64,000 bases of DNA from Diacronema lutheri (taxonomy: Eukaryota; Haptophyta; Pavlovophyceae; Pavlovales; Pavlovaceae), in NCBI GenBank assembly GCA_019448385.1, contig JAGTXO010000068.1:62001-126000 (forward strand), in the 5' to 3' direction. This document shows positions 15,891-43,237 of the stretch, in pieces (within the stretch, counting starts at the first letter, position 1; each line of letters begins with the position of its first letter). The notes under the pieces are model-generated. The model was not told where the DNA came from. It was given only the letters and a program-made list of their open reading frames with translations, and searched no databases. A program made the translations under genes and the position numbers.

Positions 15891-18800
15891 ATGAAAGTTA
15901 GCCCTGCGGTGATTAATAAAATATTTTCAAGATGTCAAGGTAACGGCCTCCCTGCTCGCCGCGGCCTTGTCGGGCTCGCGGATATGGCAGGGAGGCCACT
16001 GGCGCTCATGCCCCCGGTGGCGGAGATGCCGCAGCCTTTCGCAATCGCGCCGATGGTCGCCACCCGGCTCCGCCACCTGCAGGCCATCGTCACCTCGTAC
16101 ACGGGGATCTACGACTACCTCGTTTCGCACCGGCTCGGCCCCGATTTTGTCGACACGGCGACGGCGAAGCACGTGCTCGCGAACCTGCCCCATTCGGAGC
16201 GGCCTGGGTCGGACGCCACGCCTGCAGAGTGGGCACGCATTGGCAAGTCCAACTTCCATCGCGCGCTCGCACGCGGCCTGCACCCGGACAAGCTTTGGTG
16301 CGCGCAGACGACGGTTGTGCACGAGTTCATGGCGTCCCGCCTGCGCGAATTGGCGCTACGCGCATTGGCGATCCTCACCGGGGGCACGCCCGAGCTCGTC
16401 GTGGCACCTCTCGCTCCGCCGCGCGTGACGGGCTGGCAGGGCGTCGGACCCGCGCAGGGCGGCGGGCGGCGGGCCGCGGAGCCGTCGCCCGTCGAGGTCT
16501 TCGCCTGCGACATGGCGGCGGATGTGTGCACGGGTCTGCGCGTCGCGCACCACGGACGTGAGGCGGCGTTCCACGGGCATCGGGGAGTTGCGATGCTCGC
16601 CGCCGAGAGGCTGCGGCAGGAAGCGCACCGGCTGTCACCGCAGGTCGGCGACAGACGCGGCCGTGACGGGGCGGACCGCCCGTCGGCGCGCACCCGTGCG
16701 GCCACGGGCGGGCCATCACAAGGGACGGGCTCCTCCCCCCGCGCAAGCGCGCCGCCGTCACGGCCAGCCCCGCGCACGTTCCGGCGTCCGGCACAGGGCC
16801 AGCAGGGGCCACCGCAGGGGCCGCCTCCGCCGCCCTACCCGCCGCCACCGCCGCCCCCTCCGCCGCCGCCACCACCGCGGGACGGAGACGAGGACGAGCG
16901 GGGCGCCGGCGGCGACGACGACGTCGACGTCGTCGACGACGGGCACGCCGGCGGCGATGATGCCGGCGCGCGCGGCCGGCGGCAGCGGCACCGTGCCGGG
17001 GCTAGCCGCGCAGACCCCGTCATGCCGCCGGCCACGGCGCACCGGTCGATGCAGGGCGGCACGTACGCGGCGCTGGACCACCTCACCGTCATGCAGGCCG
17101 CGGGTCTGGCGCCTGACTCGGCCGTCCCGATGCTGGTCAGCGTGCCGCACGACTTTTCGGAGCGCTTCGCCGCGGCTTTCGTGCAGGTGATCCACAAGCT
17201 TCGCGACGCCGAGGCGGACGAGGGCACCGGCGGCCACGGCGCACGCCAGACGGCGACAGAACGCGCGCTGAAGATGCTTCTCCTGCTGCCAGCGCTCCTC
17301 CTACGCGCGACCCGCGCCGACAAAGTGAGGGTAGGCAAACAGCTTGCCGCGCGCTTCGCCGCATGGGAGGCGGGTGACTACGACCAATTGGTTGCGCACT
17401 GGGAGCGCGACTGCTCGTGGCACGCGGCACGCGCGTTCCAGTCGTCGCAGGATGCGGACGAGCGCCTGCACAAGCGCGTGCTCGCACTCATCGCCAAGGG
17501 CAAGGTGTCCGACGCGCGGCGGCTACTGGAGAGCTTGGGTGTCGCCGACATAGCCCGCCCGGAGGTGCTCGCGCAGATGGCAGCCAAACACCCGGTGCGC
17601 ACGGCGGACGTCGACGACGGCCTTGCCGATCGGGACGACTTGCCCCGAGTGGTGATCTCGCCGGAAGACATCGTGACGGCGTTCCGCAGCCTCGACACGG
17701 ACAAGGCGGCCGGCGCCTCGACCTGGCGCTACGAATACCTCATCGCCCTGGTGCCGACCGTGCCCTTCCCGTCGATCATGGCGGCCGATGCGGCACACTC
17801 GGGCGCCTACTTTGCGACGCGCTTCGCCAACAACTTGCTGCCTGCGTGGTTCAATTTCGTCTTCTCCTCCGTGCGGCTTCTGGCGCTTCGCAAGTGTACG
17901 CCCGGGGTGGACGGGCGCGAGGACGCTCGCCCGGTCGGCATCGGTTGTGCGTTGCGACGGGCGGTTTCCAAGGCGGTGGTCTCGCGCGCATCGCACAAGG
18001 CGCTGGCGGCGGGCTACTTCGCGCCGCAGCAGCTGGGAGTCGCCGTACCGTCGGGCGGCACCAAGCTCGTCCTCTCCGTGCGCGAACTCCTCGACGCGGA
18101 TCCCACGCTCTGCATCGTCGCGGTCGACGTCTCCAACGCCTTCAACTCCGTCAGTCGGGCGCATCTCCTGCGCTGCCTGACGGACGTTCGCCTCCCTGAG
18201 GACCTCCGAGCGCTCGCTCGCCTCGCGCTCGCGACGCTCGCTCAAGAGGCGCTGGTCTTCGCGGGCGGCGGCAGCGGCGGGGCACCTCTCCGTGAGCTCG
18301 GCTTCCGCAGCTCCGAGGGCGTCCAGCAGGGTGCGCCGGAAAGCTCCTTCTTCTTCGCGGCCGCCATCCAACCCCTTCTCGAGGAGTTCGACGCGCGCCT
18401 GGCGCTCCACGGCGGGGCGGTCCGCGCGGCGCACGACGACGTTTACCTCCTCGGGCGGCCGGTAGATGTCTTCGCCGCGCTTGCGGACTTCACGCGACGG
18501 CTGGAGGACCTCGGCCTTTGCGCCAATGCGGCCAAGTCGCAGTGCTGGATCGATCCGCTCCACATGGCCACGCTCGAGGCCTGCCGCGGCTCGATCTCGC
18601 TCGGCTCGGTGCCAGACGGCGCGGGTGGCGCGCATTACGGCATCGATGTCTACGGCGTGCCCATCGGCGCGCGCGAGTATGTGCACTCGACCCTCAGCAC
18701 GAAGGCCGACGAGCTTGCCGGCAAAGCGAACAACATGATTCAGTCGCTCGGCTCGTCGGACAAAGAGTCGCTGTGGGTCGTGTTGCGCTGCTCGTTCTAG

Positions 18801-20429
18801 CACCGCTTCGCATGGTTCACCTCCAACTCCTACCCTTCCGACGCGGCCGGCGCGGCGGCGATCTACGACGCTGCCGTCCTTCGGGTCGCCACCGTCGCCC
18901 TCGGCGTCTCGGTGTCCACCGATGCTCACGCCTGCCGCCGGCTGTTCCTACCGGTCGCGCAGCACGGCGGCGGCCTGCGCAGGCAGGCCGACTCTGCGCT
19001 CGCGGAAGTCTGGGGCGCAGCGTGGCGGGTCGTGCCACACTTGCTCGACACGCTCGCGCCGGACGGCACGGTGCTCATGCAGGGCATCCTCGACCGCCCG
19101 GCCATCGCAGCTCGCGTCGGTCGCGGCGCATTCGAAGACATGCCCACGCAGGGCTGGCGCCAGTTTTTCGCCTCGGGCTCGCGCCTAGGCGGCGAGCTCG
19201 AGGCGACGTGGAGTCGCATGCAGACGGAGCTGGCCGGATGGAGGCAGCAGCCGGACGGCGTGGAGGTGCGCGTGCTGCACTTGCCCGCTGGGTCGGTTGC
19301 ACCCGCGGCGCCCGACGCGGGTCGCAGGCCCAACCTGCAGGCCGACATCACCGGCGACCGCGAGCGCTGCCGCCTCGCGATGCTCGACGCGGAGCACGCC
19401 GCCATGCACCCCTCCGCACGCGCGCGCCAGCTGTGGTTCGCACTCGGTCGGGAGAGCGGCTTGTTTCTCTCGTTGCTGCCGCGCGGCCTCGGCGCCTTCT
19501 CGTGCGCGGAGTGGGTCGAGGCCACGGCGCGCTACTTTGGCCTGCCGAGCCCGGCATGCGCGCCGCTCGCGGCGGCGGGCGCGCGCCTCCCGCGCAGCGG
19601 CGCGCAGCGGCCGGTGCCCGTCGACGCTTACGGCGACTCGATCGCTGCGGCGCCCGGCGTCGCGCACGACCACTTCGCCAAGCTTCGGCATGACCCGGTC
19701 CTCGCCGCGGTCGCGTCGCTCGCCCGCATGGCGGGCGCCTACGTGCGCCTCGAGGACAGTGACATCTTCGGCTCCGTGCTCGCCGGCGTGCCGGCCGCGG
19801 GCCGCCGTGCGCTCGGTCGCCGGCGCGTGCCGACAGTCGACTTCGTCATCGCGCTCCGCAGCCAGCTGAACCTCTTCGAGCTCAAGACGCTCGCCTTCTG
19901 CCCGACGCGCTACAAGCCGTGGGCAGATGCCCGACGCTGCGGGGCAGTGGAGCTGCGCGCGCGCGAGGTGCCGAGGGAGCGGCTGCGCGAGTGCGTCGCG
20001 CTCGACCGGGAGGTCTTCGCGGCGCCAGAGGGCCACGTGGGCCCGATGCAGCGGCGCCTCCACGAGTTCCCGCCGCTGCAGGCGGTCGTCGTCGGCAGTT
20101 TTGGCGAATGGTCGGCCGGGCTGGCTGCCCTCCTCAAGACGCTCTCGCACATGGGCGCGGACGCGTGGATGGCGCGCATGCGCGCGCCGACTCGCGGCGC
20201 CGCCCAGGCGTCGCTCGAGCGCGTCATGCGCCACCAGCTCGCCGCGTGTGTGGTGCGCGGGCACGCGCAGCTGCTGCTCGCGCGCGCGCGCATGGTGCGC
20301 GCGGGGGCCGCGCCGCGTCGTGCGGCCGACCAGGCGGCGGAAGCGGGCGCTGACGCGTGCGGTGGTTTGGACGGCGTGTATCGCCTGCACGCGGGCGGCG
20401 GCACGCGACCGGCAGCGCGCGGCGGTTAG
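15891..20429 (+). pseudogene. Non-LTR-type retroelement polyprotein: reverse transcriptase plus putative PD-(D/E)xK nuclease, one nonsense codon
   Basis: One frame of about 1,512 codons runs from ATG 15891 to TAG 20429 and is broken only by TAG at 18798-18800. The reverse transcriptase includes DKAAGASTWRYEYLIAL, a palm Asp in VAVDVSNAFNSVSRAHL, the GVQQGAPESSFFF motif, and AAHDDVYLL. In that last motif AHDD replaces the usual YxDD but keeps both aspartates. A Pro-rich/acidic linker lies at 16790-16990. Downstream of the TAG the same frame continues (HRFAWFTSNSYPSDAAG) into a domain with VDFVIALRSQLNLFELKTL, a D-x(11)-ELK pattern fitting a restriction-like endonuclease. Continuity of sense across the TAG suggests a recent single mutation. 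I cannot place it in a named clade. Confidence 0.78.
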
Positions 20430-20824
20430 GCACGTGCGGGCCCTTTGGGCCCGTCGGGCCTCGCTGCCCGCTCGCTGGTGACCGGGATGCGCGGGAATCG
20501 ACGACATTGGTGGCTACTCGATTCCCCCGCAGCTGGTGCTGACCCCGCTGTCCTGACGTAAGCGCCGTTAGTATTAAAAATTTAATACTAACGGCGCTTA
20601 CGTCAGGACAGCGGGGTCAGCACCAGCTGCGGGGGAATCGAGTAGCCACCAATGTCGTCGATTCCCGCGCATCCCGGTCACCAGCGAGCGGGCAGCGAGG
20701 CCCGACGGGCCCAAAGGGCCCGCACGTGCCTAACCGCCGCGCGCTGCCGGTCGCGTGCCGCCGCCCGCGTGCAGGCGATACACGCCGTCCAAACCACCGC
20801 ACGCGTCAGCGCCCGCTTCCGCCG
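20335..20824. repeat. 490-bp near-perfect palindrome (245-bp arms)
   Basis: 20335-20579 and 20580-20824 are reverse complements (x pairs with 41159-x), with no interruption that I can find. The centre reads TTAGTATTAAAAATTTAATACTAA. The left arm is the last ~95 bp of the retroelement frame plus its 3' end; the right arm is the same 3' end inverted. GCCGTTAGTATTA occurs once more just outside the right arm (20821-20833). It looks like an inverted, 5'-truncated second copy, or an assembly fold-back. Confidence 0.9.
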
Positions 20825-20906
20825 TTAGTATTAATAAGCTTCCCTGCAGTGCCTTTCCGCATTTGGAAACCTGGATCCAAAAATCTGGATCCAAAAATAC
20901 GGGTCC

Positions 20907-22008
20907 ATGACGCGCGTGGAGCACGGAGACGACGCGCGCGTGCGAGTCATCCACGACCGCGTCGCGCAGCTGCGCGCCGAGGGTCGCTGGCGTCGGCAGC
21001 GCGTGCAGCTGCCCGCGTTCGTCGGCGGTGCGCTCATCGCGTGCGTCGGCGGCGCGTTGGCGGTACTGCACGGCAGGCTGCTGCGCGCAGTTGGCCTCGG
21101 CTGCGCCCATCTCGGGCTGTGGCTCGCGCTGCTCGCGCTGCGGCCGCAGGACCGTCAGAGCGTGCGCTTGCTCACAGCGGCAAGCACCGTCTTCCTCGTC
21201 GCCGTCGCCATCGACATTGCCCTTCCGCGCGGCACCGAGACGGTGCACCCCGGCACGTCGATCGCGCGCGCGCTTGCGGCGGCGCAGATTGCAAGCGCGG
21301 CTACGAGTGCGCTCGCGTCCGCGGCGTGCCTGCTAGTGCTCGTCGCCGACGTTGCATTTGGCGCGTCTCCGCGGCTGACGCTTCGACGGTGCTGGCAGAC
21401 GCTCGGCTCGACGTACATTCTTTTTGCGTGTGTCCTCTACATGCCCAAGGCCGTGTTCGCGTTCGCCGCGCCGTCGAGCGTGGCCCACCTGCAGCTCGCC
21501 CGCGAGGCGCTCGTGCCGCTTATCGCCGTCGCCATCGGCCTCGGCTGCACCGCCTTTTGGGAGCCGCTGCGCACGAGCGTGCACGAGCTGCTCGCGCGCA
21601 TCGGCGAGGGCGTCTCGGCCGCCGCGGGCATCGCCGAGCTCATCGGCGGGTTGCCGCCCGCCGAGGTGCTCGCGCGCGCGAGGGCGACGTTCCGTGCACT
21701 GCCGGCGAGCGCGCTCACCCTTGAGCACTTCACGCTGCCGCACGCGCCGACGATTGGGCCGCAGCGGTCGGCAGGGGCGCTATCGCGCACGTCGGGCGCG
21801 TCGGTCGGCCGCCCGTCCTCGTCAGCGGGCGGCGTGTCGCCGCACTGGCGCTGCGCACGAGTCGCGCCCAGCTGTGCGGCTGGCGCGCGCGTGTCGACAC
21901 CGCGCGCCTCGTTTGCCATGAGCGCCGCCGAGCTGTACGCCACGTCGTCGCCCGTGCAGCTCGGCAGCGTCGACGCGTTCATCTCGCACTCGTGCGCGCG
22001 CGCGCCTC

Positions 22009-22039
<31 letters not shown>

Positions 22040-22417
22040 CGCCTGCTGCCCTTTGCCCCGTGTACTTCTTTCCGCCCCCCGCCCCCCCCCCCCCCCCCTC
22101 CCCCCTTCCCCCCCCCTTCCCCGCTTACTCACGCGGAGCCTGTCGCGGCGCGCGCAGGTGGCACGATGACCCGGCGTCCAAACTCGATGCAATTCAAAAG
22201 TGGCGCCGCCGCTTCGTGCGGACGCACGGCCGTGAGCCGACCGTGTGGTGCGCGCCGTACCCCACCCCTTGCCCGTTCATCCCCTTCACCCACGCGCGCA
22301 TCCAACTTGGCGGCCTGGCGCCGAGGGGCGCGCGCGCAGGCTGAGCGTGCCATGGGCGAGCCGTTACGCGCCCGCGTTGGCACATTGCCCGCGTCGCCGT
22401 GCGCCCGCATCCTCGGC

Positions 22418-35409: not shown

Positions 35410-37522
35410 TCAGACGGCGCCCACCTCGAGCTTCTCGCCGTCGCTCAGCTGAACGCGCCCCTGCTGCTCGTCGAGCTGCCGCAGCTTGCGCAGCGCCACG
35501 GACGTGCGCTTGGTTCCCATCTCATGCAGCTCCTTGAGCACTTGCCCAAAGTCCTGCGCCCGCCGGGAGTCGCCCGCGGCCCCGGCCGCGCATCGGCGCG
35601 CGCGCGCCCATGCGCGCGCCCGCGTGTCGCACGACGCGCGGCGCGCGACGCGCGACGCGCGACGCGCGCGCGCGCTCACGCGGATGGACAAGGAGCGGGT
35701 GCGCCACTGTTCGGCCATGTGCGCGTAAAGCGCCGCGTGCAGCTCGTGGAACGCGTCGACGGCCGAGTTGCGCTCGTTCGCCGCGGCGGTGAGCGCACCG
35801 CAGCGCAGCGCCTCGATGCACACCTTTGTCAGGTTGATCGAGACCGTCATGAACGGGAAATCACGCTCGCCGCGCGAGAGCGCGTACAGGCCCTGCGCGA
35901 GCGGCCGCCTGCGCGTGACGAGGTAGAGCGCGTTGAGGAGGGAGAGCATGCCGACGCCGCGCAGATCCGTCGCCGGGTCCGTGCCCTGGAAGCCCACCAT
36001 GTCCCAATGCGCGCCGTAGCGCGGCGGGTCGCGCGCGTTGCCCGTGAGCGCTTTAAAAATCGACATGAGCATGCGCAGATGCGCGTCGACCGTGTCATCG
36101 AGCGGCGTCTTCGCGACGCAGAGCAGCATGTCGCGCTGCGCGTGCAGGTGCTCGCCGCGCAGGCGCGGGCGGAGGAACGGGACGAGGCGTGGCATGCAAC
36201 CCGCACCGGACCAGTCCTGCAGCACAGCGGCGCGCGGTCCGCACGCCGCGCACGCGCGTCAGCCGCGCGCGCGGCGCGCGGACCACGCAGCCGCGCATAC
36301 GCGCGCGAGCGCGCGTGGCGCCGCCGCGGGCGCGCACCGCGCGCGCGTGGCGCGGATGCGCGCGCGTCACCTCGCGAACGATCACCGCAGCGTGCGCCGT
36401 CACGTCCGCGTCGGTTTCAAAAAAGGCGAGGGCCTCGGCGAAGCCGATCTTATCGCCGCGCGCGCGCGCGCCGAGCGGCGCCTGTGCGCGCGCCGCGGCG
36501 CGCTCGGCGGCGGCCGCGCCCGCCTGCTCGACAGCCGCCCACTGCGCCTCGGCTGCCGCGCGCTCGGCGGCGTCCGCCGCGCCGCGCGCGCCGGGCAGCG
36601 CGGCGGCGCCCGGCGCGCCGCCACGCACGTCGGTGCCGCCCTCCTCGCCGTCGCCGCCGGCCCTGCCCTCGCCCTCGCCCCCATCGCCACCACCGACCGC
36701 GCCCGCGCCCTCGCCTCCGCCGCCGTCGCCATCGCCCCCGTCGCCACCACCGTCGTCATGCTCATCCTCTTCCGCATCCTCCGAGATGTGAATCAAGCCG
36801 CCGCGCCGCTGCGAGGCGGCGAGCTCGTCCGCGCGCTCGGCTGCACTCTTCGCCGCGTGCGCCGCCACCGCCTGCTGCCCCGCCGCGCCTCCACCCGCCG
36901 CGCCACCCGCCGCCTCGCGGACGGCGCGTAGCGCGCTCGCGGCGTCACCTCGAAGGTCGGCGAGTTGGCGCTCCTCAGCGGCCGCGGCGGCCTCGGTTGC
37001 CTTTCGGCGCTGCTCGGCGAGAAGCGCGTCCACGTCGTCCGCGTCTGCCGCATCCGCCGGAGACAACGCCGGCGCCGCCGGCGCCGCCGCCGCTGGCAGC
37101 CGAGGCGCGTCGGCGCGGTCGGCGTCGGCGTCGGCCGCCGGCCGTGCGGTCTCGGCGTCCGCGGGCTCGAACGCAAACTCGTCGTCGTCGTCGCCGTCGT
37201 CGTCTCCGCCGGCGCGGGCGGTCGCGGGCACGCGCACGCTGCCAACCTGCGCGGCCGCCGCCTCGGCCTCCAGCTCGAGCTGCCGCTCGAACTCTGCGCG
37301 GCGCGCCTCGTCGTCGCGCGCGGCGGCAGCAGCCGCGCGACTATCGCGCGCGGCCGCGAGCGCGCGCTTGCGATCGTCCGCGTCGGGTCGCGCGCGCTGC
37401 GCGGCAAGTTGCGCGGGCCGCGCGCCCGGGATCGACGTGCCAGCCGGCACGCCGGCCGGCCCGCCGCCGCCGAGGACCTCCTCGACGGCGTTGGCCATCG
37501 CCAACTCGAGCGGGGTGGCCAT
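35410..37522 (-). CDS. ELMO-domain protein
   Basis: Three exons read leftward: 37522-36371, 36216-35680, 35553-35410; all introns phase 0; 610 residues. The first 340 residues are charged and low-complexity: an Ala/Arg/Glu coiled coil, acidic DDDGDDDDEF and a Gly/Asp stretch. The ELMO domain begins at the end of exon 1 (FAEALAFFETDADVTAHAAV) and continues in exon 2, with YGAHWDMVGFQGTDPATDL and RGVGMLSLLNALYLV as its core. ELMO proteins act as GAPs for Arf-like GTPases (the ELMOD type) or with Dock exchange factors. Here no PH domain or Dock-binding tail is seen, so the ELMOD type is more likely. The invariant WxxxGFQGxxPxxD segment is intact. Confidence 0.85.
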
Positions 37523-37716: not shown

Positions 37717-40700
37717 TCACGCGCTTTGGCGCGCCGGCGCGTCCGCGCTTCGCAGCCAGCGACACGACCTCGACATCTGCTTCCCTGCGCCGCCGAAGCG
37801 CAGCTCGAACGCGCGCCCGACCTCGCCCGCGCCCGACGCGCGCCGCCCGTTGCCCGCCCGCCCTCCAAACGGCAGCCGCTCCTTGGCGCCCTTCTCGGGC
37901 TGCGCGCCCGCGCCGGCCTGGCTGGCGCACGCGCGGCGCACGACGTGCTCGCGCAGCTTGAGCAAGAGCGGCTCGACGTCGGCGGCAAACCACGCGTCCA
38001 CGTGCTGCATGTACGTATCATGCCACGAGTCGACGCCACCCGACGGCGTGCCGGGCGCGCACACACTTCGCCGAGGCGCGCTCTTCCTGGGCCGACGGCG
38101 TCCAGAGACGGTTGGGCTTGCCGAGCGCGACGGTCGGCCGAGCTCGGCAACCACCGCCTCGATCGTCGCCGCGCTCGCGGCCTCGGCGGCGGTGCGCGTC
38201 GGAGGCGCACGCCGCGGCGCGCACCCCGTCGACGCGCGCGCGCGCCGCTCGCGGTGCGCCGGCTCGTCACTGCCGGCGGCTCCGCCGTCAAGCGCGTCGA
38301 CGCCCGAGCCGACGGCGGCGTCAACCTCGCGCGAATGCGCGCGCGCGCCGCCCGCCACGGCCTGCTCGGCGCGCGAAGCGTCGCCGCCGGCGGAGCTGTG
38401 CTCGTCAGGCCGCGCGACCGCGCCTGCCGCCGCCGGCGCGCGTGGCGAGCTGCCCACGGGCGGCGTCCCGGGCACGGCCTCGTCGCCGCCGTGCGGCGTG
38501 TCGACGCGCAGCAGCGGCGCGCTGCCCGCGCGCCGCAGCTGCGCCGCCGCCCGCGCGCCATCCGCGCGCTCGTTGTCGCCGTGCGTGGACGGCGGCAGCG
38601 CGCTGCCGCCGTCCACGCGCACTGCGCTCACTGGCGCCGTCAGCTCACTGTGCTCACTGCGCACACTGCGCACACTGCGCACACTGACGGCGTCAGCGCG
38701 CGCAGTGAGCGTGGATGGCGGCAGCGCGCTGCCGCCGTCCACGCGCACTGCGCTCACTGGCGCCGTCTGCTCACTGTGCGCACTGCGCACACTGACGGCG
38801 TCAGTGCGCGCAGTCAGCGCCGCGCTGTGCGCGAGAGGCGCCACGCCGCCGTTCCAGGCCGTCGCCGGGGCGCCGTCCGCCATTTGTCGAGGCGCCCGTT
38901 GCGCCGTCTCGGCCACCGGCGGCGCGCGCTCGTGTGCGAGCGTCGTGCCGACGCTGACGAAGAGCGGCGCCTCCTCGCCGTCGGTCGACTCGCCCACGTC
39001 GTCGAGGCCCGCCGCCGCGCCGACCGCGGCGGCGCCAACCACCGCGTCGGCGCGCGCGCGCGCCGCCGCACCCGCGCGCTGGGCAGCGCCGCCGCGCGCC
39101 GCGAGCGCGACGGGGTGGCGCACGACGACCGTGGGCGAGGCGTTCGACGACCGCGCGCGCGGCGGCGCCGGGTCCGCGAGCTCCTCGGCGGCGCGCAGCG
39201 CGAGCTCGGCGCACGCGGTGCACGTCTCGCCGTCCCACGTGGCGCACAGGCGGCCGTGCCGCTGCTGCGTGGTGCCGTGCGCGGTGCGGCGCGCGCGTTG
39301 GCGGCAACAGGTGCGGAGCGGCGCGCCATCCGCTGTGCCGTTCGCGCGGCCAAAGTGGCCAAACGTCGCGTGGCGCGCGGGCAGCGGCTGCGTCGACGCG
39401 GTGATGGCGACCACGTCCGTCCGGTCCATCCGTCGTCCGTCGCCATCGTGCGCAGCACTTACGCCTGCCAACGAGCGCATGGGCGCGCGGGCGTGCGCGA
39501 CGGCGGGCGCGCTGCACGCCGCTCGCGCTGCATGCGCGTCCGGCTCGGCGTCGCTCGAGCAGGCGCTGTCCGGTGCGCTGTCCGGTGGACTGGGGCTGTC
39601 CGGCGGCGAGCGCGCGCGCGGCAGCCGGAGCAGCGCCGAGCCGGACTCGACGGCGGTTCGGCGCCACTCGGTCGGGTTGGCGCGGCGCAGCGCGACGGCG
39701 AGCGTCTCGAAGAGCAGCTCGGATGCCAGGTCGGCGAAGGACGCGAGGAGTCTCGAGTAGCCGTAGCCGCGCGCCGCGCGCTTCGCGGCCGCGCGCGCGA
39801 GAAGTGCAATCGCCGTGCACTGCGCGAAGCGCTCGAACGCGGCGTCGGAGACGAAGGAGCGCTGGATGAGCGCGCGGAGCACGCGCCGCTGCGCCGGCAC
39901 GGCGACGGCCGTCGTCATCACCGAGATCCGCCGGATCGCGTCCGCGTAGCGCGGCGCGTTCTCCGGTTTTAAAAAGAGCTCCGCGGAGACATGCACAGCC
40001 GATGGCGGCCGGCTGAGCAGGAAGAGGCCCCACTCGAAGAGGCACCACCTGCGCACAACACGGCGCGCCAAAACGACGACGCCGACGCCGAGCGCGCGCG
40101 GTGGCGGCGCCGCGCCGAACGATGAGCGCGCGCGCGACTGCCCGCGCGTCTCAACTGGGAAACAAAAAGATGAGCACGCGTTGAACAACTGAAAACAAAG
40201 AAAAGAAGAAGAAAAAGAGCACGTGCCCGCCGGTGTCCGAGCCGGCCGTCCGGCGCCGGCGCCAACGGCGCAGGCCGCGCTCCGGCCGCGCTCGGCAAAA
40301 CACCTCGCCGGCGTCCTCGCCGGCGTCCGGGGCCCGCGCGCGCCGGCGCGCGCGCGCGCGCGCGCACATGCGCGAGAAGTAGTTGTGCGTGCACAGAACA
40401 ATCATGGCGTCGCACTGGCCAAGAAAGCCGCCGATCTACGCGTTGACGCGCGCGCGCGCGTGTGTGCGTGGGCAGGCGGCGGCGTGCGAGGCGGCGTGCA
40501 GGCCGCGCGCGGGGGGTCAACGCGTCAAAGTGGCCGGGGGTTGCCGAGGGCCGGCGCGGGCGGCACGGGCGGCACGGCGAGCGGCGCGCGCGCGCGCGCG
40601 CGCGCGCGCGCGCGCGCACCTGACCGACGCACAGGTCGAGGAGAGAGTGTTCTTGCGGGCAGCACGCCTTGTCGATCCACAGCCGCGGCTCAGGCGGCGC

Positions 40701-43237
40701 GGGCGGCGCGCTCGAGCAGCCGCCCGCGTCGGCGGCGTGCGCGGCGGAGCACGCGCCCGCCGCGCACTCCGCGGCGGCCTGCAGGTCCTTGCACGCGAAC
40801 GAGACCTCCATCGCCTTCGCCTGCGCGTACGCGATCGCAGAGTCCCAATCCTCGGGAGGCGACCAGACGTGGCTGACGAACCACAGCGGCGCTTTGGCCG
40901 CCGGAGGGCAGCGCGCACCGGACTCCGGTGCGGCCGCCGGAGCTCCCGGACTCAGCCAGCTCGGCGTCGCTTGACCAGCCGATCGCGCCGCGCCAGCGCC
41001 CGCCGGGCACGGCGCGTCGATTGACGCAGCGCGCGGCGGCGCGGCCGGCGCGGCCGGCGCGGCCGGCGACGGCGCCGGCTGCCGCTGCCGCGTGCCCCAC
41101 GCACCGCACGCGCCCGCCGCGCACGGCCCGATGGGCTGCGAGAGGAGGTAATCCTCGAGCCTGCCGTTCGGAACAGCCCAAAAGGACGCCGCAACGGGCA
41201 GCCGCTCTGGCGTCGTCCAGTCAGCGCTGACTGTGGCGACGTGCACCTGTTGCGAGGTGAGTGGAAGCGCACGAAACGAAGGAGCGCGCGCGCGCCACGC
41301 AGGGGCGATGACGTGAAGGGGGTACCGCCACGCAGCGGGCGATGGCGTGAAGGGGGCGGCGCGCAGCGCGGCGGGTGAGGGCAGGCGGCAGGCACGCAGC
41401 GGGCGCGCGCGGCGCGGCCGCCAGCGCGCAAGAGCGCGGGCCCGCCAACCGCAGACCGCTGAGGCGATGACGAGGCCAACGATGGCGACCGCGCGCAAGA
41501 GCGCGGGCCCGCCGGCGCGGGCCCGCCAAAATGCGCGCGCGGCGTGCGGCGTGCGGCGCGCACCCCGCGCAGCAGCAGCAGCTCAGGCGTCGGATGGCGC
41601 TGCGCGAGTGCACTGAGGACGTCAAGCTCGCGCACGAGGGCCGCGCGCTCGTGCGACGTCATGGGCGAGACGTGCAACGGCGCCGCGTGCGCCGAATTCC
41701 ACGACGCGCCGCGAGTCGGCAGCACCGGCAGCACGAGCGCACTCAGCACGGCGAGCATCGGCCGCGCGTCGGCCACGTCCCCGGCCGCATCCGCGTCCTG
41801 CCCACCGCGCGCCGCGTCCTCGGCAGCGGCGCCGACGCTCGCCGCGCCGCGCGCAGCGGCGCTCGCGGCGCGCGCACGCCCCGCGCGCGGCCGCGCGCGC
41901 TCGGCCGCGGCGTCGTCGTCGTCCGCCGCTTCCGGCGTGCGCGACGGCGGCTGCACCTCGAGTGTGTCGTGGAAGACAGCGTCCTCGCCCGGCGACTCAT
42001 AGCCGGCCCCGGACTCGAGCGGCGCGGCCCCGAACTCGAGCGGCGCGGCCCCGGACTCCGCCCCCGCGTCGTCCGCGTCCGCCTCCGTGCCCGCCTCCAC
42101 CTGCTCGAGCATGTGCGCAAACTCGTGCGCGGCGAGCGCGCGCACGTCGGCGCCCAGCTCGGCCGCGACCGCCGTCGCCATCGCCGTCGCCCGCGAGCGG
42201 CGCGCTAAACGCACCGCACTGCGCGGCGATGGCAGACCGCCGCCTCGCACCACGCCAGGCGCGGGCGACGCGCGCGCGCGGGCGCGCCACGCGCTGAGCA
42301 GGCCGCGCCAGCCGTGGCTCGCGAGCGCGGCCGCTGGCCAGCGCCAACTGTCGCGCGGCGCATGAGACGTCGGGTCCTTCGCCTCCGCGCCCGCCGCCAC
42401 GCCGCTACGCCACCACGCGCGCTCAGCCACCGTCGCGAGCGGAGAGCGAGCTGGGAGCGAGTGCGCGAACGCGTTCAAGTCGAATGCCGAGCGCTCGATC
42501 GAGCCGCGCGGGCTGTCCGCCGCGCCGCGCGTCCGCCGCTGCTCGTTCGAGCTCTCGGCGGTAACGAAGAGTTGTGCAAGCGCGTCGTGCACGTCGCCGG
42601 GCGAGAAGGGCGCGGCGGGCGTGCCGGAGGCGAGCGGCTCGCTCGCGCGCGCGACGGCGGCGCGGCCGAGAACCCACACCTGCCACGCCGCCGAGCTCCC
42701 CTCGGGCGGCACGATCGGCACCATCAGGATGGACTCGCCGTACAGCCGCTCGGCGAGCGCGGGCACGGCGCCCTCGACAACGTACTCGAGGCCGCGCCGG
42801 TCGGACGCGTAAGAGAGGCGCGACGAGCCGTCGGCGAGCAACCGGTAGTCGAAGATTGGCATGCTCGACCTGCGGAACGACCGCTCGAGATTGGTATGCA
42901 GCAGGTTGAGGTTGAGCATTAGCTCGCGCACGTCCGAGCCGAGCGCACCGAGCAGCTTCAAGTAGCCGGCGCGCGCGACGTGTTCGATATGCGCCTTACC
43001 GATCAGCCGGAGCCCATCCGCCAGCTCGAGCTCGAGCTCGTCGAGCGTCGCAACGAGCAGGCTCTTCGACAGGCAGTCGGGATACTGCTCGGCGCGCACG
43101 AGCGTGTCGTCGGGCGCGACGACCGGCGCGACGTCGCGCGCCATGTCGGCGAGCGCGCGCGCGCGCGCGCGCGCCCACGCGCTCGGCTCGCGCTCGTCGA
43201 GCAGCGCCTTGAGCACCGTGTGGATCAGCCCGTGCAT
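37717..43237 (-). CDS. H-NOX haem-sensor domain fused to a TIR-like domain
   Basis: Four exons read leftward: 43237-41564, 41246-40620, 40435-40368, 40048-37717; 1,566 residues. Residues 1-180 are an H-NOX (haem NO/O2-binding) domain: N-terminal MHGLIHTVLKALL, GSDVRELMLNLNLLHTNL with proximal haem-ligand His114, and the propionate-binding YxSxR motif as YASDR (143-147). A disordered linker follows. Exons 2-4 rebuild a TIR-like domain: LWFVSHVWSPPEDWD (679-693), RLWIDKACCPQ (746-756), CDAMIVLCTHNYFSR (775-789) and MWCLFEWG (790-797), with Glu795 at the WCxxE position. The 770-residue tail is disordered apart from a helical segment after the domain and a Cys cluster (TWDGETCTACAEL). Intron phases agree at every join. 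The weakest join is intron 1 (317 bp), where a separate gene starting at 41498 is conceivable. Confidence 0.74.

Follow-up and report, generated by a model that had tools for sequence, protein, structure and literature searches.

The gene and its predicted product

The stretch of DNA analysed here, the window, comprises 64,000 nucleotides from the haptophyte Diacronema lutheri (assembly GCA_019448385.1, contig JAGTXO010000068.1, positions 62,001 to 126,000). On its minus strand, from 43237 to 37717, lies a gene whose predicted product joins an N-terminal H-NOX domain to a divergent TIR-like domain. Positions are those of the window, and C55 is the label of the window's contig. The four exons splice to 4,701 nucleotides, encoding 1,566 amino acids and a stop codon; the translation has no internal stop, and all three introns are of the GT-AG type (Table 1). 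A first-pass annotation, made from the letters alone, had proposed this four-exon model and noted that frames and phases agree across the introns, as indeed they do. The family motif VDAWFAAD shows the exon 4 frame to be correct near its end.

That annotation had named the first intron as the weak link of the model. The intron is G+C-rich and contains many candidate donors. With the end of exon 2 fixed, we enumerated all pairs of a GT or GC donor with an AG acceptor that gave introns of 40–900 nucleotides, left exon 1 open and kept the frame, and scored the translation of each against two C55 paralogues that have no intron at that place. The pair 41563/41247 ranked first of 1,193 with a score of 312; two pairs with GC donors followed at 306, and the runner-up among GT-AG pairs had 294. 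Within the ranges scanned the chosen intron is the best, but its lead is small.

A thin margin among so many frame-keeping pairs, in a G+C-rich intron with many donors, would also suit two adjacent genes, H-NOX and TIR-like, that had been falsely joined. We give this hardly any credence: in the two paralogues both domains occupy one frame with no intron between them, the intron 1 junction aligns to these paralogues without a gap, and co-oriented pairs of the two domains occur nine times in the genome. In addition, inspection of the exon 2 frame found no ATG between the last upstream stop and the SHVW motif, so that exon 2, as read, is not a free-standing gene. On the basis of the splice-pair enumeration and the intronless paralogues the two-gene reading was rejected. 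The fusion is confirmed, at the level of sequence, as a real one and as a single predicted translated unit; eight further fusions in the same genome, two without an intron between the domains, bear it out.

The Pfam HNOB model (PF07700) matches residues 43–170 with 64.7 bits, where the cut-off is 25.5 (E 1.2e-17). A PDB search with the H-NOX part returned soluble guanylate cyclase (sGC) beta-1 as its top match (E 6e-12); in the alignment His114 pairs with its ligand histidine, and YASDR with YYSDR. The nearest relatives of solved structure are this protein and the Nostoc H-NOX Alr2278. The histidine and the YASDR motif had both been picked out in the first pass, and with the HNOB score above its cut-off the assignment of the N-terminal domain to the H-NOX family is firm. 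A search for HNOBA was silent, as was its control, and is given no weight.

The layout of sGC beta-1 is H-NOX–HNOBA–coiled coil–cyclase. The window protein resembles it in having an N-terminal H-NOX domain with the same histidine and YxSxR motif, and in carrying sensor and effector in one chain; unlike it, the window protein lacks a cyclase. Pfam found no Guanylate_cyc domain in the 1,566 residues, and none of the six guanylate cyclase matches in the genome falls on a contig with an H-NOX domain, C55 included. A guanylate cyclase partner was rejected on these grounds.

Table 1. Features of the H-NOX/TIR-like gene, in window coordinates
Feature	Position	Strand	Basis
Exon 1	41564..43237	-	Starts at ATG 43237-43235; 558 codons covering H-NOX domain and first linker; open frame, HNOB at residues 43-170
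Intron 1	41247..41563	-	GT-AG, 317 nucleotides; top of 1,193 admissible pairs; C55 paralogues unbroken over junction
Exon 2	40620..41246	-	Conserved region FW...G..EDY.LS, followed by TIR-like domain, first half; nine-protein alignment
Intron 2	40436..40619	-	GT-AG; paralogues aligned and unbroken across position
Exon 3	40368..40435	-	IGGFLGQCDAMIVLCTHNYFSRM, immediately 5' of WCLFE; nine-protein alignment
Intron 3	40049..40367	-	GT-AG, at WC motif; intron inferred within one codon in 8/8 paralogues
Exon 4	37717..40048	-	WCLFEW and a conserved extension; then low-complexity tail, C-terminal family motif and stop
H-NOX domain, residues 1-185	42683..43237	-	HNOB match, sGC beta-1 alignment, nine-protein alignment
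His114 codon, predicted proximal haem ligand	42896..42898	-	Aligned with LH histidine of sGC beta-1; invariant, 9/9
YASDR, residues 143-147, haem-propionate motif Y-x-S-x-R	42797..42811	-	Y and R in 9/9, S in 7/9
FVSHVW, residues 681-686, first conserved TIR-like motif	40863..40880	-	FVSHxW in 9/9
WIDKACCPQ, residues 748-756	40653..40679	-	W[IV]DKxCxxQ in 9/9
WCLFE, residues 791-795 (block WCLFE region 789-796)	40033..40047	-	Predicted alpha-C motif, Glu795 and Cys792; WCx[FY]E in 9/9
VDAWFAAD, residues 1473-1480	37978..38001	-	Family-specific C-terminal motif; VDxW[FYL] in 9/9

A family of fusion genes in D. lutheri

The 43.49-Mb, 103-contig assembly was searched in six frames, and the counts that follow are lower bounds. 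HNOB gave 11 matches at no fewer than 10 loci; the spliced TIR-like part gave at least 52 matches at E≤1, fragments and the gene itself included. A TIR-like domain lies downstream on the same strand in nine of the ten H-NOX loci found, the tenth, on C40, having none; among the 13 of the 52 matches that were listed, the nearest lies 869–1,482 nucleotides from the H-NOX match. At C55:16402-18783 and C55:19767-22625 the two domains share a single open frame, of 794 and 953 amino acids, and the only intron inferred in this pair is small, in frame and inside the TIR-like part. An intron at the WC motif is common to all nine genes, to within a codon, although in the C55 pair it requires GC-AG borders. 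When spliced, the loci yield nine in-frame fusions of 730–1,566 amino acids, of which the window copy is the longest. As predicted from sequence, this is a family of at least nine fusion genes in which the H-NOX ligand histidine, tyrosine and arginine and the WCxxE motif are kept throughout.

In trees built for each domain, the window gene and the C55 pair separate from the remaining six (C97, two on C102, two on C11, and C28); support for the former group is 100/99 for the TIR-like and 87/89 for the H-NOX domain. Because both trees split the nine genes alike, we infer one old fusion. The C40 H-NOX shares an unresolved fork with the group of six in the H-NOX tree. Ratios of nonsynonymous to synonymous substitution (dN/dS) in four close pairs (C55p/C55m, C102a/b, C11a/b and C11a/C28) were 0.23–0.41 for the H-NOX and 0.21–0.52 for the TIR-like domain, compared with 0.50–0.76 for the linker and 0.43–0.82 for the tail; for C97/C102b the corresponding values were 0.62, 0.42, 0.94 and 0.83. 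On the whole, then, both domains appear to be under tighter constraint than linker and tail.

Three further features of the family were noted. In the inverted C55 pair, 16462-18784 (+) and 19766-22286 (-), synonymous divergence (dS) is 0.07–0.08 in the domains against 0.44 in the linker and 0.77 in the tail, a pattern such as gene conversion acting on the domains might leave. All nine fusion loci lie 7–83 kb from a contig end, whereas the kinase-linked H-NOX of C40 lies at 165 kb; the family is possibly subtelomeric. In five of the nine genes the WC-motif intron has a length divisible by three and contains no stop, and its retention would insert 36–46 residues into the TIR-like site; in a G+C-rich genome such frame-keeping introns may arise by chance.

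The exceptional locus, C40:165259-170629 (+), has an H-NOX domain followed by a frame with six hydrophobic windows, a weak HisKA match (E 0.0063), HATPase_c (E 8.7e-11) and a receiver domain just below threshold (E 8.2e-7). It is apparently a eukaryotic hybrid histidine kinase with an H-NOX sensor. It shares organism and sensor family with the fusions, but has kinase and receiver matches in place of the TIR-like domain.

In bacteria, H-NOX proteins are stand-alone domains with kinase, cyclase or chemotaxis partners. The sensor domain is the same as that of the fusions. Of 194 genomes sampled from the phylum of Nostoc, HNOB matched 16 at E≤0.001; in 15 of these the match exceeds the cut-off and lies in a frame of at most 221 amino acids, too short for a fused TIR, and the sixteenth has a sub-threshold match in a frame of 577 amino acids. 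H-NOX proteins of Acanthamoeba are likewise eukaryotic, not joined to guanylate cyclase and argued to sense nitric oxide (NO), but no TIR or HET partner is named in the portions of PMC4053784 drawn upon here.

Identity of the TIR-like domain

The WCxxE motif is kept not only in the nine fusions but in all eight aligned relatives without H-NOX, and the TIR-like part has at least 20 genomic matches outside the fusions at E≤0.001 (at least 31 at E≤1). Thirteen contiguous members, five fused (read through the presumed intron) and eight from loci without H-NOX, were scanned against Pfam. HET was matched by nine (best E 0.0026), TIR_2 by two (best 0.035) and ThsB_TIR by one (0.041), and no other family was listed; against the HET cut-off of 22.5 bits, one member scored 12.8 and two relatives 15.6 and 13.6. 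The window protein itself was not listed for HET. That HET is matched more often than TIR goes beyond what the first-pass annotation could see, as does the existence of a gene family. A search of the whole genome for HET was silent, as was its control.

Using hhalign, with profiles of ten TIR_2 domains from three cyanobacterial genomes and, as control, ten receiver domains from one of these genomes, the fused domains matched their unfused relatives at 98.7% (E 1.7e-16), the unfused relatives matched bacterial TIRs at 68.9% (E 4.5e-5), and fused and unfused together matched bacterial TIRs at 30.0% (E 5.5e-4), all E-values being those of single comparisons. Controls gave 0.25–0.51% (E 0.11–0.24) for receiver domains and 0.05% (E 0.83) for H-NOX. 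The profile alignment pairs the family's WC..E with YC..E in bacterial TIRs. AlphaFold2, applied to a relative without H-NOX (L059, on contig C99) rather than to a fused domain, returned, in its best model, four strands alternating with helices, with a predicted local distance difference test score (pLDDT) of 72.4 and a predicted template modelling score (pTM) of 0.68. The profile of unfused domains had no match among PDB sequences, and of 73 and 28 pattern matches to TIR-like relatives in prokaryote and viral collections none was confirmed.

HET homologues in Haptophyceae, and a remote homology between HET and TIR, were reported by Dyrka et al. 2014 (PMC4986451). HET is a cell-death domain that shares with TIR a functionally important glutamate (PMC9153377); the manner in which HET domains induce death is described as unknown (PMC10890737). 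The D. lutheri domain is like those of the fungal HET and HET-TIR superfamily in its Pfam matches (nine of 13 to HET) and its conserved glutamate (PMC4986451, PMC10890737, PMC9153377), but it scores below the HET cut-off and is joined to a gas sensor rather than to an NLR. We call it TIR/HET-like because HET and TIR are its nearest Pfam families, because a chain of profiles leads to TIRs, and because HET-TIR homology has been published. Its identity as a divergent TIR-like domain is supported but indirect, the tie to bacterial TIRs running mainly through relatives in the same genome.

SARM1, the plant TNLs and Thoeris are TIR enzymes that cleave nicotinamide adenine dinucleotide (NAD+) under allosteric control. 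The fusions resemble them in having a sensor part that would control the TIR, and in the alpha-C glutamate and cysteine (PMC9153377 for part of this comparison); unlike them, their sensor is an H-NOX domain, and their relation to TIR is remote.

TIR/HET-like proteins without H-NOX are found on C48, C75, C5 and C99, and in the four scanned a simple hydropathy scan marks five to six hydrophobic windows ahead of the domain. On C48 five TIR-like matches stand in a row at spacings of 1.9–2.6 kb. Five tandem matches at C9:282051-293057 are spaced by 2,694–2,697 bases, and three frames compared there differ by at most one residue over the part read. Apart from the H-NOX-linked family, six TIR_2 matches exceed the cut-off (C93:130985, C4:623408, C4:623924, and one each on C71, C85 and C92); the C93 domain had no PDB match and no plasmid match. 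A locus on C88 combines a weak match to the new family with a sub-threshold TIR_2.

A candidate gas-gated effector

We propose that the family encodes apparently soluble, single-chain proteins whose H-NOX domain binds haem and governs an effector of divergent TIR/HET type, the whole serving as an NO-triggered switch for stress, defence or cell death. We put the probability of this reading at about 0.5. NO would bind ferrous haem opposite His114, upon which the bond between histidine and iron would break or shift, as in soluble guanylate cyclase. The movement would be relayed via the linker to the TIR-like domain, which may then self-associate, with itself or with membrane-bound TIR-like proteins of the genome. 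So assembled, it would act through Glu795, most likely by cleaving NAD+ or cyclising nucleotides, and the cell would enter a stress, defence or death programme. A distal tyrosine at the place of sGC Ile145 marks H-NOX domains that bind O2; since the sGC beta-1 alignment puts the nonpolar Val153 of the window protein there, NO is favoured as ligand. A like argument has been applied to the Acanthamoeba H-NOX (PMC4053784). In plant TIRs the alpha-C glutamate is essential to NAD+ hydrolysis and the neighbouring cysteine to synthesis of 2',3'-cyclic nucleotide monophosphates (PMC9153377).

Several observations weigh against this proposal. On the sensor side, the C55 pair has glycine for serine in YxSxR (YTGER), and Tyr152 of the window protein adjoins Val153, for which reason O2 may yet be bound. 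Certain bacterial H-NOX proteins, moreover, respond to oxidation (PMC7108781, PMC12329717), and the domain could be a haem, redox or O2 sensor instead of an NO sensor. This we judge to be quite improbable, given that the nearest solved relatives are sGC beta-1 and Alr2278 and that the tyrosine stands next to the distal position and not at the Ile145 place itself.

On the effector side, neither the window protein nor any of the 13 members reached the Pfam cut-off for TIR (PF01582, PF13676) or HET (PF06985); the TIR_2 match of the window protein is sub-threshold (residues 772–801, E 0.098, 13.6 bits against 28). Compared directly, fused domains matched bacterial TIRs at only 4.2% (E 0.0097), and single-sequence HMMER scores between family and TIR were not significant. 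The other four models of L059 had pLDDT of only 57.4–45.1. NCBIfam and PADLOC gave, for one member each, Cas8g/Csx17 (0.02, 0.077) and a sugar-phosphatase (0.17), beside the TIR-like FxsC (0.042). The first-pass claim of a TIR-like domain is supported indirectly, by the profile chain from fused domains through unfused relatives to bacterial TIRs, the direct comparison being weak; of the domain models it had named as a check, HNOB scores above its cut-off and those for TIR below theirs.

The TIR-like domain might instead be an assembly module, which NO would free to dock on multi-span membrane proteins through their TIR-like tails; the fusion would then be an NO-controlled adaptor. The genome offers candidates for such tails in the TIR-like places outside the fusions and the hydrophobic windows in the four proteins scanned, and some TIRs that lack the catalytic glutamate or NAD+ hydrolysis still require TIR-TIR association (PMC9153377). 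A pure scaffold, however, would have no need of a WCxxE motif, which is kept in nine of nine fusions and eight of eight relatives. We hold the adaptor to be unlikely, though seriously to be reckoned with.

Returning to the NO-triggered switch, further points count against it. Hydropathy windows over threshold number zero to two per fused protein, and because one falls in the linker of the window protein (residue 488), solubility is a prediction. In C11a/C11b the dN/dS of the TIR-like domain, 0.52, is not below that of the linker, 0.50. Between the window gene and C55p the H-NOX ratio is 1.05, at a near-saturated distance, with 0.60 for the TIR-like domain, 1.15 for the linker and 0.75 for the tail. 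A value near 1, in the longest and a divergent copy with an end branch of 1.7 in the H-NOX tree, could signify that the window gene is a decaying duplicate of a working family. We think this very unlikely, as 1,566 codons are open and the family motifs are intact, the C-terminal VDxWF included. The motifs are the better evidence, since open frames mean little at 73% G+C (73.25% in the published genome of strain NIVA-4/92, whose annotation drew on RNA-seq; PMC8379373).

Nor was a nitric oxide synthase (PF02898) found in the genome; NO would therefore have to come from nitrite or nitrate reduction, which is a possible source, or from outside. In Emiliania huxleyi NO is produced early in viral infection, but cells under peroxide survived better with an NO donor (PMC6461841), and NO does not necessarily spell death. 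In Gephyrocapsa huxleyi NO supplied by bacteria takes part in setting off a death-like cascade (PMC10356946). A bolder form of the proposal, which we offer as doubtful, is that the family is the NO receptor that kills or arms haptophytes, with NO switching on a TIR/HET enzyme in the same chain that depletes the cell of NAD+ or produces a nucleotide messenger. NO for such a receptor would come from bacteria, infected cells or dying neighbours. If true, a TIR would here be under the control of a gas, in a receptor of immune type with a diffusible gas as its signal.

The first-pass annotation knew of no such architecture from the literature, and we found no co-mention of H-NOX with TIR domain, or of HNOB with TIR, in the PMC literature, a scope that leaves subscription papers and preprints outside. 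None of the 25 papers listed by a wider search mentions a TIR-like domain. Sensor-controlled TIR or HET-like domains are known, but with this sensor they are unreported in the literature searched. The fusion adds a sensor to those that control TIR/HET domains and an output to those under H-NOX, and it could link NO directly to a death or defence response in algae. The main text of PMC10356946 does not contain the terms sensor, receptor, guanylate or H-NOX, and hence names no algal NO receptor there. A multigene family that couples a haem sensor of the NO type with a relative of death domains is a direct and testable candidate for one.

Lastly, some minor features of the window may be recorded. 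ARAGORN called tRNAs at 39019-39107 and 40221-40299; both lie inside the gene in G+C-rich sequence and were taken as false. An Rfam scan of the window gave nothing above cut-off. Downstream of the gene and on the same strand, a frame at 35413-36258 (-) carries an ELMO/CED-12 domain (E 2.2e-32).

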